Shown here one piece after another: positions 4,909-62,019 of a stretch of 64,000 bases of DNA (positions are counted from its first letter, which is position 1; every line of letters starts with the position of its first letter). The stretch lies in assembly GCA_017860345.1 (NCBI GenBank), contig JAFNAV010000008.1:1-64000 (forward strand). Direction: 5' to 3'. The translations under genes and the position numbers were made by a program. The DNA is from Bacteroidota bacterium (lineage in GTDB: Bacteria > Bacteroidota > Bacteroidia > Bacteroidales > Paludibacteraceae). The notes beneath the pieces were generated by a model, which saw only the letters and a list, made by a program, of their open reading frames with translations, did no database searches and was not told where the DNA came from.

Positions 4909-4958
4909 GATAGTTGAGGCCTTTTACGGGTGTTCTTTTTGAAAATTGAATTTTTTAT

Positions 4959-5032
4959 GAAACGGGCATTTAAAGTCTAAAACAGGTTCAATGCAAGTTT
5001 TGTACGAATATAAAAAAGAAATTATTATCGTA
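4959..5032 (+). promoter_or_regulatory. structured leader, copy A, before the CoA-binding protein gene
   Basis: First copy of a leader that recurs in this window. The 5' arm is GAAAC-GG-GCATT (4959-4970) and the 3' arm is AATGC-AA-GTTTT (4990-5001). The two 5-bp helices pair fully (one G-T) around a 2x2 internal loop, with a 19-nt apical loop. The A-rich tract TAAAAAAGAAATTATT (5011-5026) ends 6 nt before ATG 5033. The other copies are at 5495, 23394, 61930-62019 (minus), 36908-36998 (minus) and 56664-56717 (minus). Confidence 0.55.
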
Positions 5033-5392
5033 ATGAAAAAGACATTAATTATTGGAGCAAGCAACAATCCTGAAAGATATGCTTATAAGGCAGCAGAAAG
5101 ACTGCTGAGTTATGGACATGAAATAGAGTTGCTCGGACTCAGAAATGATGAAATTTTTGGTAAAGTAATAGATACAGAAAGAAAACAATATACCGGAGTA
5201 GATACGGTTACGCTTTACGTTGGGCCGCAGCGCCAGCCCGATTATTATGATTATGTGCTTTCGCTCAAGCCCAGGCGAGTGATATTTAATCCCGGAACCG
5301 AGAACAATGAGTTTGAAACTCTGCTTCGCCAAAACGGCATTGAGGCCGAAGAGGCATGTACGCTGGTATTGCTGGGAACGGGACAGTTCTGA
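5033..5392 (+). CDS. CoA-binding (YccU-like) domain protein
   Basis: A 119-residue Rossmann-type protein of the CoA_binding_2/YccU family. It begins MKKTLIIGASNNPERYAYKA, a glycine-poor nucleotide-binding turn typical of this family, and contains SLKPRRVIFNPGTENNEFE, matching the family's conserved NPG element. These proteins are thought to bind CoA or a related ligand, but no reaction is established. The start at 5033 follows directly after the structured leader; the in-frame ATG at 4991 would start inside the leader's 3' arm. Confidence 0.8.
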   Translation: MKKTLIIGASNNPERYAYKAAERLLSYGHEIELLGLRNDEIFGKVIDTERKQYTGVDTVTLYVGPQRQPDYYDYVLSLKPRRVIFNPGTENNEFETLLRQNGIEAEEACTLVLLGTGQF

Positions 5393-5494
5393 GTTGTAGA
5401 AAACAGGGCTGAGATTTTTTATTGAAACAATATTTGATAAACACAAAATATAAAAAAAATAAACAGAATTTTCTTTTCAGGAAGTTTGAATTGT

Positions 5495-5584
5495 GAAGCG
5501 AGCATTAAAAACAGAGGTTAAACATCAAAGAACATGTTTGGTGCAGGTTTCACACTATATATTAAAAAAAACAATTATTCTCGG
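5495..5584 (+). promoter_or_regulatory. structured leader, copy B, before dapB
   Basis: The 5' arm is GAAGC-GA-GCATT (5495-5506) and the 3' arm is GGTGC-AG-GTTTC (5540-5551). All ten positions pair if G-T is allowed, although both arms differ from the other copies; this is compensatory change. The A-rich tract ATTAAAAAAAACAATTATT (5561-5579) ends 5 nt before the dapB ATG at 5585. Confidence 0.55.
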
Positions 5585-6162
5585 ATGAAAATAGCATTAA
5601 TTGGTTATGGTAAGATGGGCAAGGTGATTGAACGCATTGCACTGGAGAGAGGACACGAGTGGTGTCGGGTACTACAGGCTGGGTCGATGCGCTTCCCGAG
5701 CTTACAAAAGAAATTGAGACAAAAGGATATACGCTGTTTTGGTCGTCGAATTTTAGCTTGGGCGTAAATATCTTTATGGCAGTAAACAAATATCTGGCAC
5801 GGCTGATGAACAATTTTCCGGCCTACGAGGTAGCTATGACTGAGGTACATCATACGCAAAAATTAGATGCTCCCAGTGGTACGGCAATAACGCTGGCCGA
5901 AGGAATTATCGAAAATCTTGACCGGAAAAATTCGTGGGTTAGCGAAACGGCTAATAATCCGGCCGAACTGGTTATCAAGTCGATTCGCGAAGGTCAGGTT
6001 CCGGGTATTCATACCATTAGGTACGAGTCGGCCGACGATTCTATTGAAATTACGCACGATGCTAAAAGTCGCGAAGGGCTGGCATTGGGTGCTGTGATGG
6101 CTGCTGAGTTTACCGCAGGTAAAAAAGGCCTGCTCGGAATGCAGGATATGTTTAAATTCTGA
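5585..6162 (+). pseudogene. dapB: 4-hydroxy-tetrahydrodipicolinate reductase gene with out-of-frame internal deletion
   Basis: The first 25 codons from ATG 5585 read MKIALIGYGKMGKVIERIAL..GHE, the Rossmann start of DapB. At about 5657 the frame changes, and from 5659 the sequence resumes as VVSGTTGWVDALPEL and runs to the normal end, including FWSSNFSLGVN, the substrate site HHTQKLDAPSGTA and GLLGMQDMFKF. From my memory of Bacteroides DapB, about 45-47 residues (roughly 140 nt, a length of 1 mod 3) are missing between GHE and VVSGTTGW. The lost part carries the rest of the NAD(P)H-binding fold. Neither piece could be a functional reductase, and dapB is normally needed for lysine and diaminopimelate synthesis. 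Deletion in this strain and assembly error are both possible. Confidence 0.85.
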
Positions 6163-23393: not shown

Positions 23394-23469
23394 GAAACGA
23401 GCATTGCTGAAACTTTCGGTCTTTGTAATGTATGTTCCTTACAACCATTAAAAAAACAATTATTACCTT
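23394..23469 (+). promoter_or_regulatory. structured leader, copy C, before the TolC gene
   Basis: The 5' arm is GAAAC-GA-GCATT (23394-23405) and the 3' arm is AATGT-AT-GTTCC (23427-23438), with a 21-nt loop; nine of ten positions pair (two by G-T or terminal match, one A-C mismatch). The A-rich tract TTAAAAAAACAATTATT (23448-23464) ends 5 nt before ATG 23470 and is identical to the tract in copy D. Confidence 0.55.
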
Positions 23470-24759
23470 ATGAAACTATTTTCAAAATTGTTGTTTTTAC
23501 TAACATTTTCCCCTGCTCTCATCTGGGGACAGTCGCTTTCGCTCGATACTTGTTTAGTCAGAGCGCGATTAAACTATCCGCTGCTCAGGCAGTACGGACT
23601 GATTGAGAAAACGGCAGAGTTTAATCTGTCGAATGCCGGAAAGGCGTTTCTGCCTCAGGTAAATCTGGCTGTTAAAGCTACATATCAGTCGGCTGTTACT
23701 GAAATACCGTCGGCTTTGTCCGATGTGATTTCTCAAATGAGCGGCCATCCATTTTCGTTTCCCTCGCTCAGCAAAGATCAGTATCAGGCGGCTTTGGAAG
23801 TGAACCAGCTTATTTGGGACGGAGGGCTTACCGGTGCGCAAAAGAAAAATATCAGGGCATCGGCCGAAACCGAAAAGCAAAAACTTGAAGTAGATATGTA
23901 TGCGCTCAATGAACGCATTTATAACCTGTATTTTGGAATTTTGCTTATTAACGAACAGCTGAAACAGAATGAGATACTGAAAGAAGAGCTTGCCGAGAAT
24001 TTCAGGAAGATAGAAGCATATATGCAAAACGGTGTAGCCCGGCAGTCGGACCTTGATGCTATAAAAATAGAGCAGATTAACGCTCGTCAGCGTGAGTCGG
24101 ATCTGATGATTACGCGCAAAAGTTACCTGCAAATTTTGGAGGCATTTACGGGACTTCAGACTACTGCCGGAGTTGAATTACAGAAACCTCAACTGCCTGC
24201 TGTTAGCCTGAGTGCTGAGAATAAACGACCGGAATTGATGATGCTTAGGGCTCAGAGTAACGCTCTGCAATCGCAGCGTGAAGTGATATATGCCGGAAAC
24301 CTGCCGAAAATCAGTGCGTTTGTACAGGGCGGATACGGTAGACCCGGGTTGAATATGTTTTCGGGAGCGTTTGAACCTTTTTATATCGGGGGCTTGCGTT
24401 TGTCGTGGAACCTGAGCGGGTTTTATACACAGAAAAACAACCTGAGTAAAATTGAAAGTGCTATGAAAAGTGTTGATGTACAGAAGGAAACATTTATTTT
24501 TAATAATGATATGGGAAGTAAGCAACAATGGAACGATATAGAAAAACTTAAAGTTTCGCTGAAAAACGACGAAGAGATTATAGCGCTACGCAGTAGCATA
24601 AAAAAAGCCTCGGAAGCCCGGGTGGCTCATGGCGCCATGACGGTAACTGATTTATTGCGCGACATTAATGCCGAAAGCATGGCTCGTCAGACTAAGGCAT
24701 TGCACGAAATTCAACTTTATATGGTTACTTATCAATTGAAAAATAATATCAATAATTAA
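23470..24759 (+). CDS. TolC-family outer-membrane efflux protein
   Basis: A 429-residue outer-membrane factor with a signal peptide (MKLFSKLLFLLTFSPALIWGQ). It has the TolC repeats: long helical pairs around SLDTCLVRARLNYPLLRQ and EAFTGLQ, and a strand-rich segment GGLRLSWNLSGFYTQKNNL. It forms the exit duct for the HlyD/ABC exporter encoded just downstream (33-nt gap). Its leader is one of the repeated structured elements. Confidence 0.88.
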   Translation: MKLFSKLLFLLTFSPALIWGQSLSLDTCLVRARLNYPLLRQYGLIEKTAEFNLSNAGKAFLPQVNLAVKATYQSAVTEIPSALSDVISQMSGHPFSFPSLSKDQYQAALEVNQLIWDGGLTGAQKKNIRASAETEKQKLEVDMYALNERIYNLYFGILLINEQLKQNEILKEELAENFRKIEAYMQNGVARQSDLDAIKIEQINARQRESDLMITRKSYLQILEAFTGLQTTAGVELQKPQLPAVSLSAENKRPELMMLRAQSNALQSQREVIYAGNLPKISAFVQGGYGRPGLNMFSGAFEPFYIGGLRLSWNLSGFYTQKNNLSKIESAMKSVDVQKETFIFNNDMGSKQQWNDIEKLKVSLKNDEEIIALRSSIKKASEARVAHGAMTVTDLLRDINAESMARQTKALHEIQLYMVTYQLKNNINN

Positions 24760-36907: not shown

Positions 36908-36998
36908 AATGGTAATTTTTATATTTCAATTTTTCAAAATAAACATTTGCATATCAATGTTTTTTAGTTAGTAACATAAACGAATATGCTCGTTTTTC
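36908..36998 (-). promoter_or_regulatory. structured leader, copy F, before the lipoprotein gene
   Basis: On the minus strand the 5' arm is GAAAAAC-GA-GCATAT (36998-36984) and the 3' arm is ATATGC-AAA-TGTTT (36954-36941). GCATAT/ATATGC pairs fully and AAAC/GTTT pairs, with a slightly asymmetric internal loop and a 29-nt apical loop. The distance to ATG (about 90 nt) matches copies B and D, but the A-rich tract is less well kept (ATATAAAAATTACCATT). The rest of the gap to 37256 is AT-rich, with a weak A/T-only inverted repeat near 37093-37135. Confidence 0.4.
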
Positions 36999-44727: not shown

Positions 44728-44958
44728 GAATAGAAACGCGGATATAGCGGATTTGGCTGATATACACTGATTTATTGTAGTAATAAAACGGATTTTAATT
44801 CTGATTTATTTACTACGTAAATGGCGGATTAGTATTCGCAGCTAAAAATCAGCCGATTTCACTTGTGAAGTCTAAAATCTGTCATGTAATCCGTATTAGG
44901 AAAACTTTTGAGTTTACAGCGAAAATCTGTTTAATCCGCTATATCCGCGTTTCTATTC
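44728..44958. mobile_element. 231-bp MITE-like element with perfect 26-bp terminal inverted repeats
   Basis: The first 26 nt (44728-44753, starting GAATAGAAACGCGG) and the last 26 nt (44933-44958, ending CGCGTTTCTATTC) are perfect reverse complements. Inside are further nested pairs: GGCTGAT (44755-44761) with ATCAGCC (44848-44854), and GTAGTAATAAA with TTTATTTACTAC. There is no ORF. I know similar ATCCGCG/ATCTGTG intergenic repeats from other Bacteroidota. No target-site duplication is obvious. It lies in the 409-bp gap 44614-45022. Confidence 0.75.
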
Positions 44959-56608: not shown

Positions 56609-56640
56609 TTTTCAGCAATATGCTATGATGGATTCATTTT

Positions 56641-56717
56641 TCTTTTTTAATAAGTTGTCGTATGGAAGTCGCATCCGGTATCTATCGGGATATGGCCTTT
56701 GCTTTAATGCTCGTTTC
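56641..56717 (-). promoter_or_regulatory. structured leader-like element, copy E, at the end of the response-regulator gene
   Basis: On the minus strand the 5' arm GAAAC-GA-GCATT (56717-56706) forms the last codons and stop of the response-regulator gene, and the 3' arm is GATGC-GA-CTTCC (56675-56664), followed by CATACGAC as in copy D and an A-rich TTATTAAAAAAGA. Pairing is weaker (eight of ten). The next ATG (about 56637) opens only four codons. No gene follows on this strand; glgB ends convergently at 56608. Confidence 0.4.
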
Positions 56718-60726: not shown

Positions 60727-61929
60727 TTACTTTGTCTTATTACCTCCCGGTCGGGCTGGCATAAACGGACTGCTGTTAGCCGAAGCTTTGGCGTTTGTAG
60801 CTTGCATATCCGCAGATATGTCTTCTACCACACTGTCATTGGCATTTAGTCCGTTTACTATTTCGGTATTTATTCCATCTGTGTCGCCCATTGTAGCTAA
60901 CTTTCGAGTAATTCTATTGCCCTGAAGCACCCATACGGCTTTTTGATTTTCGCCCGGTTTGAGCTGACTTTCGTTATCATCAACAGTATATCCGTTTTGT
61001 TCCAGCAATGCAAGGTCTGGTTTTAAGTTCAGCGCTTTATTGGGTAGTGTTTCAATACCTTCTTTTTCCATTGTAAATATGGTGATATTAGCTGTGAGCC
61101 CCGGTTTAAGTTTCAGCGATGGATTGGGGGCGTTAACTACCACTTCGTAAGTAACCACATTGGAAGTGGTGGTGGCCTGTAACCTGACCTGAGTTACTTC
61201 GCCCTGAAACAAATCGTTAGGATAAGCATCAACCGAAAAGCTAACATGCTGACCTTCTTTTACCTGACCTATATCAGCTTCGTCTACATTGGCAATTACG
61301 CGCATCTTGGTAAGGTCGTTGGCGATGGTAAACAGCGTAGGGGTGTTGAAACTGGCAGCCACCGTTTGCCCTTCTTCCACAGCACGCGACAAAACTACTC
61401 CATCGATAGGCGATGATATGGTAGCATATCCTAAATTGGTTTTTACCTTGGTAAGGTCGGATAGGTTCTTTTTGTAAGTAGCTTCCGATTTTTCGTAGGT
61501 GTATTTTGCCGTTTCGTAGTCGGTGTCGCTAATCAGATTTTTATTATGTAAATCTTTGGAACGTTCAAAATTCTTTTTCTGATATTCGTATTCAGTCTGA
61601 CTTGATTTTAATTCAAGTTCTTTCGATTTAAGATCAGAAAGTAGCGTTGTTTTGTCAATTTCGGCCAAAATCTGACCTTTTTTTACTACCGAATTATAAT
61701 CTACATATATTTTGGAGATAATACCGGATACCTGAGTACCTACTTCTACTTCGGTAACAGGTTCGATAGTTCCTGTGGCAGTAACGCTGGTACTCAGTTT
61801 GTTTTTAGTGAGCTGAACAGTTTTTACTTCAAATTTGCTTTTGGGCGAACCGTGAATAATAAGTGGCAACAAGAGTATAACGGCAACTACCACCACACTG
61901 CTTAAGATGATTATTGTTTTCTTTTTCAT
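60727..61929 (-). CDS. MacA-like periplasmic adaptor
   Basis: A 400-residue membrane-fusion protein with an N-terminal anchor (about 5-27, IIILSSVVVVAVILLLPLII). The lipoyl halves (ATGTIEPVTEVEVGTQVSGIISKIYVDYNSVVKKGQILAEID and ATISSPIDGVVLSRAVEEGQTVAASF) flank a long coiled coil (about 90-165), followed by a beta-barrel domain and a Pro/Gly-rich end. It links the MacB-like permease to TolC. Its start codon follows structured leader copy D. Confidence 0.9.
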   Translation of the reverse strand: MKKKTIIILSSVVVVAVILLLPLIIHGSPKSKFEVKTVQLTKNKLSTSVTATGTIEPVTEVEVGTQVSGIISKIYVDYNSVVKKGQILAEIDKTTLLSDLKSKELELKSSQTEYEYQKKNFERSKDLHNKNLISDTDYETAKYTYEKSEATYKKNLSDLTKVKTNLGYATISSPIDGVVLSRAVEEGQTVAASFNTPTLFTIANDLTKMRVIANVDEADIGQVKEGQHVSFSVDAYPNDLFQGEVTQVRLQATTTSNVVTYEVVVNAPNPSLKLKPGLTANITIFTMEKEGIETLPNKALNLKPDLALLEQNGYTVDDNESQLKPGENQKAVWVLQGNRITRKLATMGDTDGINTEIVNGLNANDSVVEDISADMQATNAKASANSSPFMPARPGGNKTK

Positions 61930-62019
61930 ACGTAAATAATTGTTTTTTTAAAGGTCGTATGGAACTCGCATGTCAAATTTTCACTGTCTTTGGTGAATAC
62001 TCGTATTCATGCTCGTTTC
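61930..62019 (-). promoter_or_regulatory. structured leader, copy D, before the MacA-like gene
   Basis: On the minus strand the 5' arm is GAAAC-GA-GCATG (62019-62008) and the 3' arm is CATGC-GA-GTTCC (61972-61961); nine of ten positions pair, with GCATG/CATGC fully complementary and a GA/GA internal loop. The A-rich tract TTAAAAAAACAATTATT (61951-61935) ends 5 nt before ATG 61929. A second partial 3' arm, ATGCCAGTTCCATAC, lies further upstream at 62040-62026. Confidence 0.6.

Follow-up and report, generated by a model that had tools for sequence, protein, structure and literature searches.

Several genes in the window, by which we mean the whole 64-kb (64,000-nucleotide) stretch of DNA analysed here, begin directly behind variants of one short sequence, in which two arms with the potential to pair are followed by an A-rich tract and an ATG codon. 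What kind of sequence can precede genes that look unrelated in this way? The first-pass annotation described it as a recurrent paired leader in five copies (A, B, C, D and F) and offered three readings, namely a riboregulator, a translation-enhancing leader, or a repeat family that landed upstream of genes. Direct reading finds the described arms, A-rich tract and ATG in copies A, B, C and D (Table 1), and tract and ATG are separated, as claimed, by 6 nt in A and by 5 nt in each of B, C and D. In this report, we examine the family to which these copies belong. We conclude with considerable confidence that it is a non-autonomous insertion element with the target AT|GAAA, which favours start codons and restores them.

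Copies of the element in the window and the genome

The supposed leader is a dispersed element. In the source assembly (G000; 3,272,060 bases in 113 contigs, 86% complete), the exact tract AAAAAAACAATTATT occurs 22 times against none for the reversed control, and GAAACGAGCAT occurs 37 times against a single reversed match. Inspection by eye places 20 of the 22 occurrences of AAAAAAACAATTATT in a unit of the element, and 15 of these 20 tract-bearing units are near-identical over about 92 nt (sequence GAAACGAGCATGAATACGAGTATTCACCAAAGACAGTGAAAATTTGACATGCGAGTTCCATACGACCTTTAAAAAAACAATTATTTACGTAT); such units usually have AT before them and, where the contig continues, the G of an ATG after them. 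A covariance model (R1), trained on 12 units from this assembly with two helices, P1 and P2, as its structure, finds at least 75 matches at E <= 1 in the 3.27-Mb genome (150 of 3666 candidates scored). Five of the 75 lie at contig edges, which fits repeats that break assembly. Unit length ranges from 66 to 134 nt with a median of 91 (223 distinct units). A palindrome, CCCGATAGCTATCGGG or a variant of it, occurs at varying places in the P1 loop of several subfamilies (L129, L133, L140, L168, L172, L208), as if it were itself mobile.

Known families offer no name for the element. A comparison with Rfam, proposed in the first-pass annotation, gave no match for the window at the gathering threshold, and four unit-bearing loci searched at E <= 1 gave just a tRNA outside the unit. 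In 39 relatives the exact tract is hardly enriched (43 forward and 33 reversed matches), as the subfamilies of other species differ; these were found by R1.

Within the window, R1 matches copies A to D and a further, degenerate copy (Table 1). The training set of the model holds A, B and D, which therefore match by construction, and copy C and the degenerate copy are independent matches; a loose regular-expression scan of the window was dominated by chance matches. The degenerate copy starts within the 3′ end of a gene for a LytTR response regulator, the last codons of which may have been altered by the unit, and no gene start follows it. Directly upstream of copy D lies the remnant of an older unit. 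Copy F could not be upheld as a member of the family, and may be a decayed copy. Elsewhere in the window, a 42-nt pair of inverted arms (44728-44769 and 44917-44958) is 83% complementary, with the arms 147 nt apart.

Pfam agrees with most of the gene names first given, finding CoA-binding, DapB (C-terminal domain), outer-membrane efflux and HlyD-type adaptor domains; for the proposed lipoprotein it gives no match at E <= 0.001. The dapB gene of the window is interrupted, as the frame from the regenerated ATG at 5585 ends after 60 codons, and another frame encodes the C-terminal domain from 5659. Among the other dapB matches in the same genus, 41 of 42 have an uninterrupted frame of at least 238 aa. 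The interruption in the window reflects either an assembly error or a pseudogene.

Table 1. Copies of the element and associated features in the window, and loci grouped in the comparisons with other sequences.
Feature	Position or loci	Strand	Basis or remark
Copy A (GAAACGG...GTAAT)	4959..5034	+	R1 57.2 bits, E = 7.7e-9
Copy A, left target AT	4957-4958	+	Read from sequence
Copy A, P1 5′ arm	4959..4970	+	Sequence and R1
Copy A, P1 3′ arm	4990..5001	+	Sequence and R1
Copy A, A-rich tract	5012..5026	+	2 mismatches against consensus tract
Copy A, regenerated ATG	5033-5035	+	Opens CoA-binding gene
Gene for CoA_binding_2 domain protein, 3′ of copy A	5033..5392	+	Pfam E 6.1e-22
Copy B	5495..5586	+	R1 64.7 bits, E = 2.7e-10
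Copy B, left target GT	5493-5494	+	Read from sequence
Copy B, A-rich tract	5565..5579	+	Exact match to consensus tract
Copy B, regenerated ATG	5585-5587	+	Opens dapB
dapB, interrupted	5585..6162	+	Pfam DapB C-terminal domain
Copy C	23394..23471	+	R1 40.4 bits, E = 1.4e-5
Copy C, regenerated ATG	23470	+	Opens outer-membrane efflux protein gene (Pfam)
Candidate copy F	36908..36998	-	Family-like arms; R1 11 bits, E = 7.3; unsupported
Further degenerate copy	56632..56717 (R1 match 56722-56631)	-	R1 33.4 bits, E = 3.2e-4
Copy D	61928..62019	-	R1 108.7 bits, E = 7.6e-19; near-identical to young subfamily
Copy D, regenerated ATG	61929-61927	-	Opens HlyD-type adaptor gene (Pfam)
Young copies with older remnant upstream	C34, C46, C110:29841, D		All by eye; C34 and C46 also by R1
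Empty copies of Anaerophaga repeat of about 140 nt	L224, L226, L229, L241, L274, L305, L309, L315		Joined-flank alignments
Anaerophaga units with tail TTAATAGATTAT...	L249, L251, L280, L306, L309, L323, L334
Anaerophaga units with tail ...AGATTCTTCGTCGTTACCTCCTCAGAATGA	L229, L240, L297, L305, L306, L323

Ends, target and empty sites

The ends of the element, GAAACG...NNNAT, and its target, AT|GAAA, were defined by empty sites and by 222 distinct junctions. To the left of the unit, position -2 is A in 202 and position -1 is T in 207 of these junctions; to the right, positions +1 to +4 are G in 215, A in 216, A in 214 and A in 195. The start codon is split between T and G, and the terminal AT of the element restores ATG behind the A-rich tract. 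Some left flanks differ from AT (TT in L240 and AC in L210, for example), and the right end of such units nevertheless reads AT and fits P2. The AT on the right is hence part of the element, and that on the left is part of the target. Duplication of the target amounts to GAA at most.

Empty sites were sought by comparing the joined flanks of each unit with the sequences of the unit and Y1 transposase loci, a search in which many of the other rows are tandem units and not empty sites. In Anaerophaga thermohalophila DSM 12881, two units (L240 and L249:4609) lie inside another repeat of about 140 nt, and their joined flanks give 22 alignments to empty copies of that repeat (Table 1), with the junction spanned and 0-3 gaps. 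In the own genome, the gene at the unit C15:140376 has a relative in genome G001 (L062; 73% identity over 574 columns), which starts CAT|GAAACTTTACG without a unit.

The Anaerophaga repeat of about 140 nt is itself dispersed (L240, L249, L224, L309, L274, L226, L241) and has served twice as the landing place of a unit. Anaerophaga also carries shortened units, in which a common 5′ part is followed by one of two shared tails (Table 1); L306 and L323 hold both kinds of tail or variants of them. These tail-sharing units are either chimeras or a related element.

The dapB locus allows a comparison across the genus. A dapB match is present in 43 of the 48 same-genus genomes, and in all 30 loci examined the gene begins ATGAA, with a unit in the window's copy alone. 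By eye, the unit is absent from 29/29 other loci (two of which, L448 and L449, have an identical 5′ region and are not independent), and R1 finds nothing there beyond one match of 16.5 bits (E = 0.94). The 5′ flanks are too diverged to align, and the comparison therefore gives presence or absence and not the exact cut. The element is not a conserved leader at dapB, but is lineage-specific.

The helices P1 and P2

P1 and P2 are both real helices. P1 is formed by GAAAC-GA-GCAT and ATGC-GA-GTTCC, with a 2x2 internal loop that is mostly tandem GA, and its second pair is A.C in 108/111 units of other genera, 33/37 units of a wider sample and 57/77 units of the own genus. The proposal of a conserved stem interrupted by a 2x2 internal loop is thus supported, and P2 adds a second helix, one that includes the start codon: CATNNN just after P1 is paired with NNNATG at the right end, which places the start codon in the 3′ strand.

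Covariation was scored in three alignments fitted to R1, comprising 77 distinct rows from the own genus (A3), 111 units of other genera (A4) and 37 units from the order and phylum (A5). The score is 0.191 against 0.122 for shuffled versions in A3, 0.170 against 0.056 in A4, where 89.0% of cells are paired, and 0.365 against 0.115 in A5. It was reached by 0/500 shuffles in each of the three alignments, and slid versions scored at most 0.058. For two weaker measures some shuffles did reach the observed value: for the number of pairs changed on both sides, 3 of 500 in A3 and 18 in A5, and for the number of further pair types, 7 and 31, respectively. P1 covaries in the more distant units of A5, with one pair being C-G in 30 and U-A in 7, and another G-C in 28, A-U in 3 and C-G in 3.

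Alignments fitted to R1 lean towards its structure, and P2 was therefore tested without the model too. The pattern GAAACGAGCATN{15,45}TGCGAGTTCCAT fixes P1 and CAT and leaves P2 free, and 127 of its 128 distinct matches have enough tail. In 79 of these 127 units, the three bases that follow CAT have their complement directly before an ATG within 56 nt, and in 48 they do not; re-dealing the three bases among the units gave a mean of 17.5 and a maximum of 30 in 2000 trials. Together with the covariation counts, this test establishes that the paired changes of the arms, first noticed in a few copies, are real across the whole family. Individual copies can depart from the pattern, and P2 is broken in copies B and C (2/5 pairs each). 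The helix also sets position -3, where A favours initiation; most units have C there (G-C at that pair in 84/111).

Start codons and downstream genes

Three of the 75 own-genome matches end at a contig edge and are uninformative. Of the 72 that remain, 58 have at their right end an ATG that begins an ORF of 50 or more codons, so that the genome-wide scatter regardless of start codons, which the first-pass annotation had named as evidence against its proposal, was not found. The other 14 lack a 50-codon ORF, and two of them are followed by another unit. A baseline was taken from the window, where 16 ATGAA sites at gene starts compare with about 26 further ones in non-coding sequence outside units; it is rough, and some of the non-coding sites probably lie in unlisted genes. 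The expected share at starts without preference is 0.38 to 0.5, and the preference for starts has a P of 1.4e-13 to 7.9e-8 on a tally of 60/75, which counts two contig-edge copies. In other genera, 69/111 units stand before an ORF of at least this length (P 2.5e-7, or 0.0066 against the 0.5 baseline), and there are many exceptions away from starts in Anaerophaga and its kin. The preference at the right-hand junction exceeds the frequency of ATGAA starts in the window, which is 16/50 genes when starts are taken mechanically as the upstream-most of each ORF, a figure that is probably too low.

Translations from the unit starts look like ordinary proteins. By eye, the genes downstream look unrelated to one another, and several appear to encode AroQ, PurE, DnaN, ArgC and DNA polymerase I.

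The surroundings of young copies bear on the order of insertion. Remnants of older units lie directly upstream, on the 5′ side, in at least four of 14 young copies (Table 1), and in none of the 11 (of 14) whose 3′ side is not interrupted by a contig edge does an older unit separate the young copy from the next ATG. New copies therefore seem to enter the gene-proximal ATG. These few cases suggest that, where an older copy is present, a later one goes into the ATG on its gene side, although the upstream junction of the older copy also reads ATGAAA; selection could produce the same pattern.

Distribution across Bacteroidota

The element is widespread in its own genus, with matches at E <= 0.01 in 44/48 genomes (own included). 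Under the stricter filter of E <= 1e-4, matches were found in 22/119 genomes of the order and 11/198 genomes of the phylum. High copy number in single genomes beside many genomes without a match is the pattern of a mobile element. A pattern scan of genome contigs found at least 117 stretches, all in groups of Bacteroidota save two of bacterium BMS3Abin03 (phylum unstated); Marinilabilia, Anaerophaga, Thermophagus, Draconibacterium, Paludibacter, Proteiniphilum, Dysgonomonadaceae, Parabacteroides and others are among the stretches listed. One young unit used as a query found no match in plasmid and phage records. A viral contig (L327, IMGVR_UViG_3300011323_000053) carries one unit with an untypical tail, and viral carriage is a possible route between hosts.

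Related systems and candidate mobilising enzymes

A scan for arm pairs 200-4000 nt apart, in sequence near units and Y1 genes, revealed no extended copy that encloses a gene, and no mobilising enzyme was found in this sequence. The scan gave a single long arm pair, at L301, in which the 5′ arm is poor and the 3′ arm has no 5′ arm of its own. A mobilising enzyme would act in trans, and a Y1 transposase of subclass 2.6 is one candidate, compatible with the insertion reading. The imperfect hairpin, the lack of a target duplication and the resemblance of the element's end to its target would suit such an enzyme, Y1 genes are present in 11/14 named unit-bearing genomes (four in the own genome), and the available part of PMC6006769 describes atypical secondary structures adjoining subclass 2.6 genes in Bacteroidetes. 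Against this candidate, none of the four own-genome Y1 genes has a unit nearby, and a unit lies within about 1.5 kb of a Y1 gene at only 2/64 loci (64 of 106 Y1 matches). Four loci (L336, L407, L409, L421) contain Y1 ORFs with motifs similar to subclass 2.6, none of them beside a unit. Nor does the presence of Y1 separate unit-rich genomes (10/12) from those without a match at the threshold used (7/12; Fisher P 0.37), and no Y1 match was found in G053 (41 units) or G003 (22 units), both of which are incomplete assemblies. REP hairpins carry a 5′ GT[AG]G guide at their foot (PMC6006769, in the part available), and the bases before P1 in our element are instead A (202/222) and T (207/222). A different, longer palindrome lies just before one of the own-genome Y1 transposase genes (L082, 1301-1376) and is perhaps the REP of that gene. 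On balance, we regard a Y1 enzyme of this subclass as a rather doubtful candidate.

The element nevertheless shares features with several known systems. Like REP and REPIN sequences, which are associated with RAYT (TnpA-REP) proteins, it is short and non-autonomous, forms imperfect hairpins, reaches tens of copies per genome, and is probably moved in trans. It differs from them in lacking the GT[AG]G foot, in having two helices instead of one and in its fixed AT|GAAA target at starts. The high copy number and the dispersed, mostly non-coding positions that define REPtrons are found here (at least 75 matches), but the copies are not beside the Y1 genes examined. Palindrome-associated derivatives of IS200/IS605 elements exist. 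The element resembles IS200/IS605-type elements in that the target is not duplicated, the right end repeats the left target flank, and an internal trinucleotide able to pair with both is guide-like; guide pairing has been described for IS200/IS605 (PMC6006769, in the part available). Unlike those elements, no Y1 gene lies inside the copies scanned, and the target is a start codon of which the ATG is restored.

Two other comparisons were rejected. MITEs of the DDE type, such as that of Porphyromonas gingivalis (PMC4596501, in the part available), are likewise small, non-autonomous and dispersed in Bacteroidota, but the ends of our element, GAAACG and NNNAT, are not inverted repeats, and no duplication extends beyond GAA. 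A further resemblance is to the attC sites of integrons, where a hairpin of single-strand type has conserved mismatches and units form tandem arrays. The consensus of attC contains R and L boxes (GTTRRRY and RYYYAAC), which by eye are lacking from the P1 arms GAAAC...GTTCCAT, and no cassette genes were seen.

Alternative explanations

The most substantial rival is a cis-regulatory RNA, a riboregulator or thermosensor-like leader in which P2 would hide the start codon until a signal opens it, and which would control a regulon of unrelated genes. Much of the structural evidence is what such an RNA would lead one to expect: P2 pairs the start codon and covaries, structure is conserved through compensatory change, P1 has a fixed non-canonical A.C position, as a recognised RNA motif would, and own-genome copies are mostly leaders. 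Structured 5′ leaders of Bacteroidales in Rfam likewise have covarying helices before genes, but the element matches none of these families and is not tied to orthologous genes. Mobility on single-stranded DNA could, however, explain both helices, and the genomic positions do not favour regulation. Near-identical copies precede genes that look neither orthologous nor functionally linked, others lie in gene-free intergenic repeats, the unit at dapB is lineage-specific (1/30 loci), and P2 is broken in copies B and C. A riboregulator, one of the readings first offered, is thus not borne out by the unrelated downstream genes and the lineage-specific unit at dapB, and we consider a cis-regulatory RNA quite unlikely. 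The reading of a repeat that landed upstream of genes is the best supported of the three, on account of the empty sites, the near-identical dispersed copies, the absence of the unit from the other dapB loci and the fixed AT|GAAA.

An ancestral leader might also have been copied between genes by gene conversion or segmental duplication, that is, by recombination and not by transposition, and some copies are indeed near-identical over the whole unit. This identity stops at both junctions, beyond which the flanks are unrelated, empty sites lack precisely the unit, and AT|GAAA is fixed on both sides, all of which makes copying by recombination very improbable. The same low standing applies to a translated leader, in which the left ATG and the native initiation region would drive a small ORF that ends over the new ATG and couples its translation to that of the gene. 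In copy B and others, an uninterrupted frame runs from the left start into a TGA overlapping the right ATG (27/219 with that offset), but just 44/219 distinct units stay open as far as their right end, unit length is not conserved modulo 3, and the frame of the young subfamily stops after four codons; we see hardly any prospect for this explanation. A variant of the insertion reading, which we think unlikely, is that the element recognises functional translation starts and not only AT|GAAA. An RNA or single-stranded intermediate, with the CAT guide reading AUG, would enter a working start, supply an initiation region and control the gene, and older copies would be displaced upstream.

Mechanism and implications

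The evidence thus argues for insertion at AT|GAAA, and insertion with regeneration of the start codon is the part of this reading that we hold most firmly, as very likely. The target would most often be the start and second codons, ATG AAA (Met-Lys). The left AT comes from the target and the right AT from the element, so that an ATG is regenerated behind the A-rich tract of the element, and translation would begin there, judging from the ORF structure. Insertions into start codons normally destroy a gene. If the new ATG is used for translation, insertion would cost the host little, and copies could accumulate at starts; the native initiation region, left upstream, may then decay and lock the copy in. 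Bacteroidota lack Shine-Dalgarno sequences, and mRNA structure and the nucleotides before the start tune initiation (PMC6847099, in the part available). The A-rich stretch before the regenerated ATG suits such a phylum; P2 covers this ATG, however.

How the element moves can be proposed tentatively. P1, with its A.C and tandem-GA mismatches, may be the hairpin that the mobilising enzyme recognises. The internal CAT may act as a guide, pairing either with the AT of the left target or, as P2, with the right end, in the manner of single-strand transposition of the HUH type. Both helices are kept through compensatory change. The absence of a duplication, the hairpin with fixed mismatches and the ability of CAT to pair with the left AT|G or the right end all fit single-strand transposition. 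We regard this guide mechanism as possible, but would not call it probable.

The family is real, widespread and of a known kind, that of non-autonomous dispersed repeats. New are its target and the possible sparing of the gene, which are apparently undescribed: a survey of open-access literature at the level of titles, which took in papers that contain one of four arm sequences, gave no description of such an element, and Rfam searches gave no match. If this interpretation is correct, a parasite has spread at little cost through the most sensitive part of genes, including dapB, dnaN and polA (the last two assigned by eye). The element would complicate the annotation of start sites. In a phylum without Shine-Dalgarno sequences (PMC6847099, in the part available), it would naturally give rise to new 5′ leaders as well. 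It offers a testable system, in which the ends, the target and the empty sites are defined by sequence and some copies appear to be recent.
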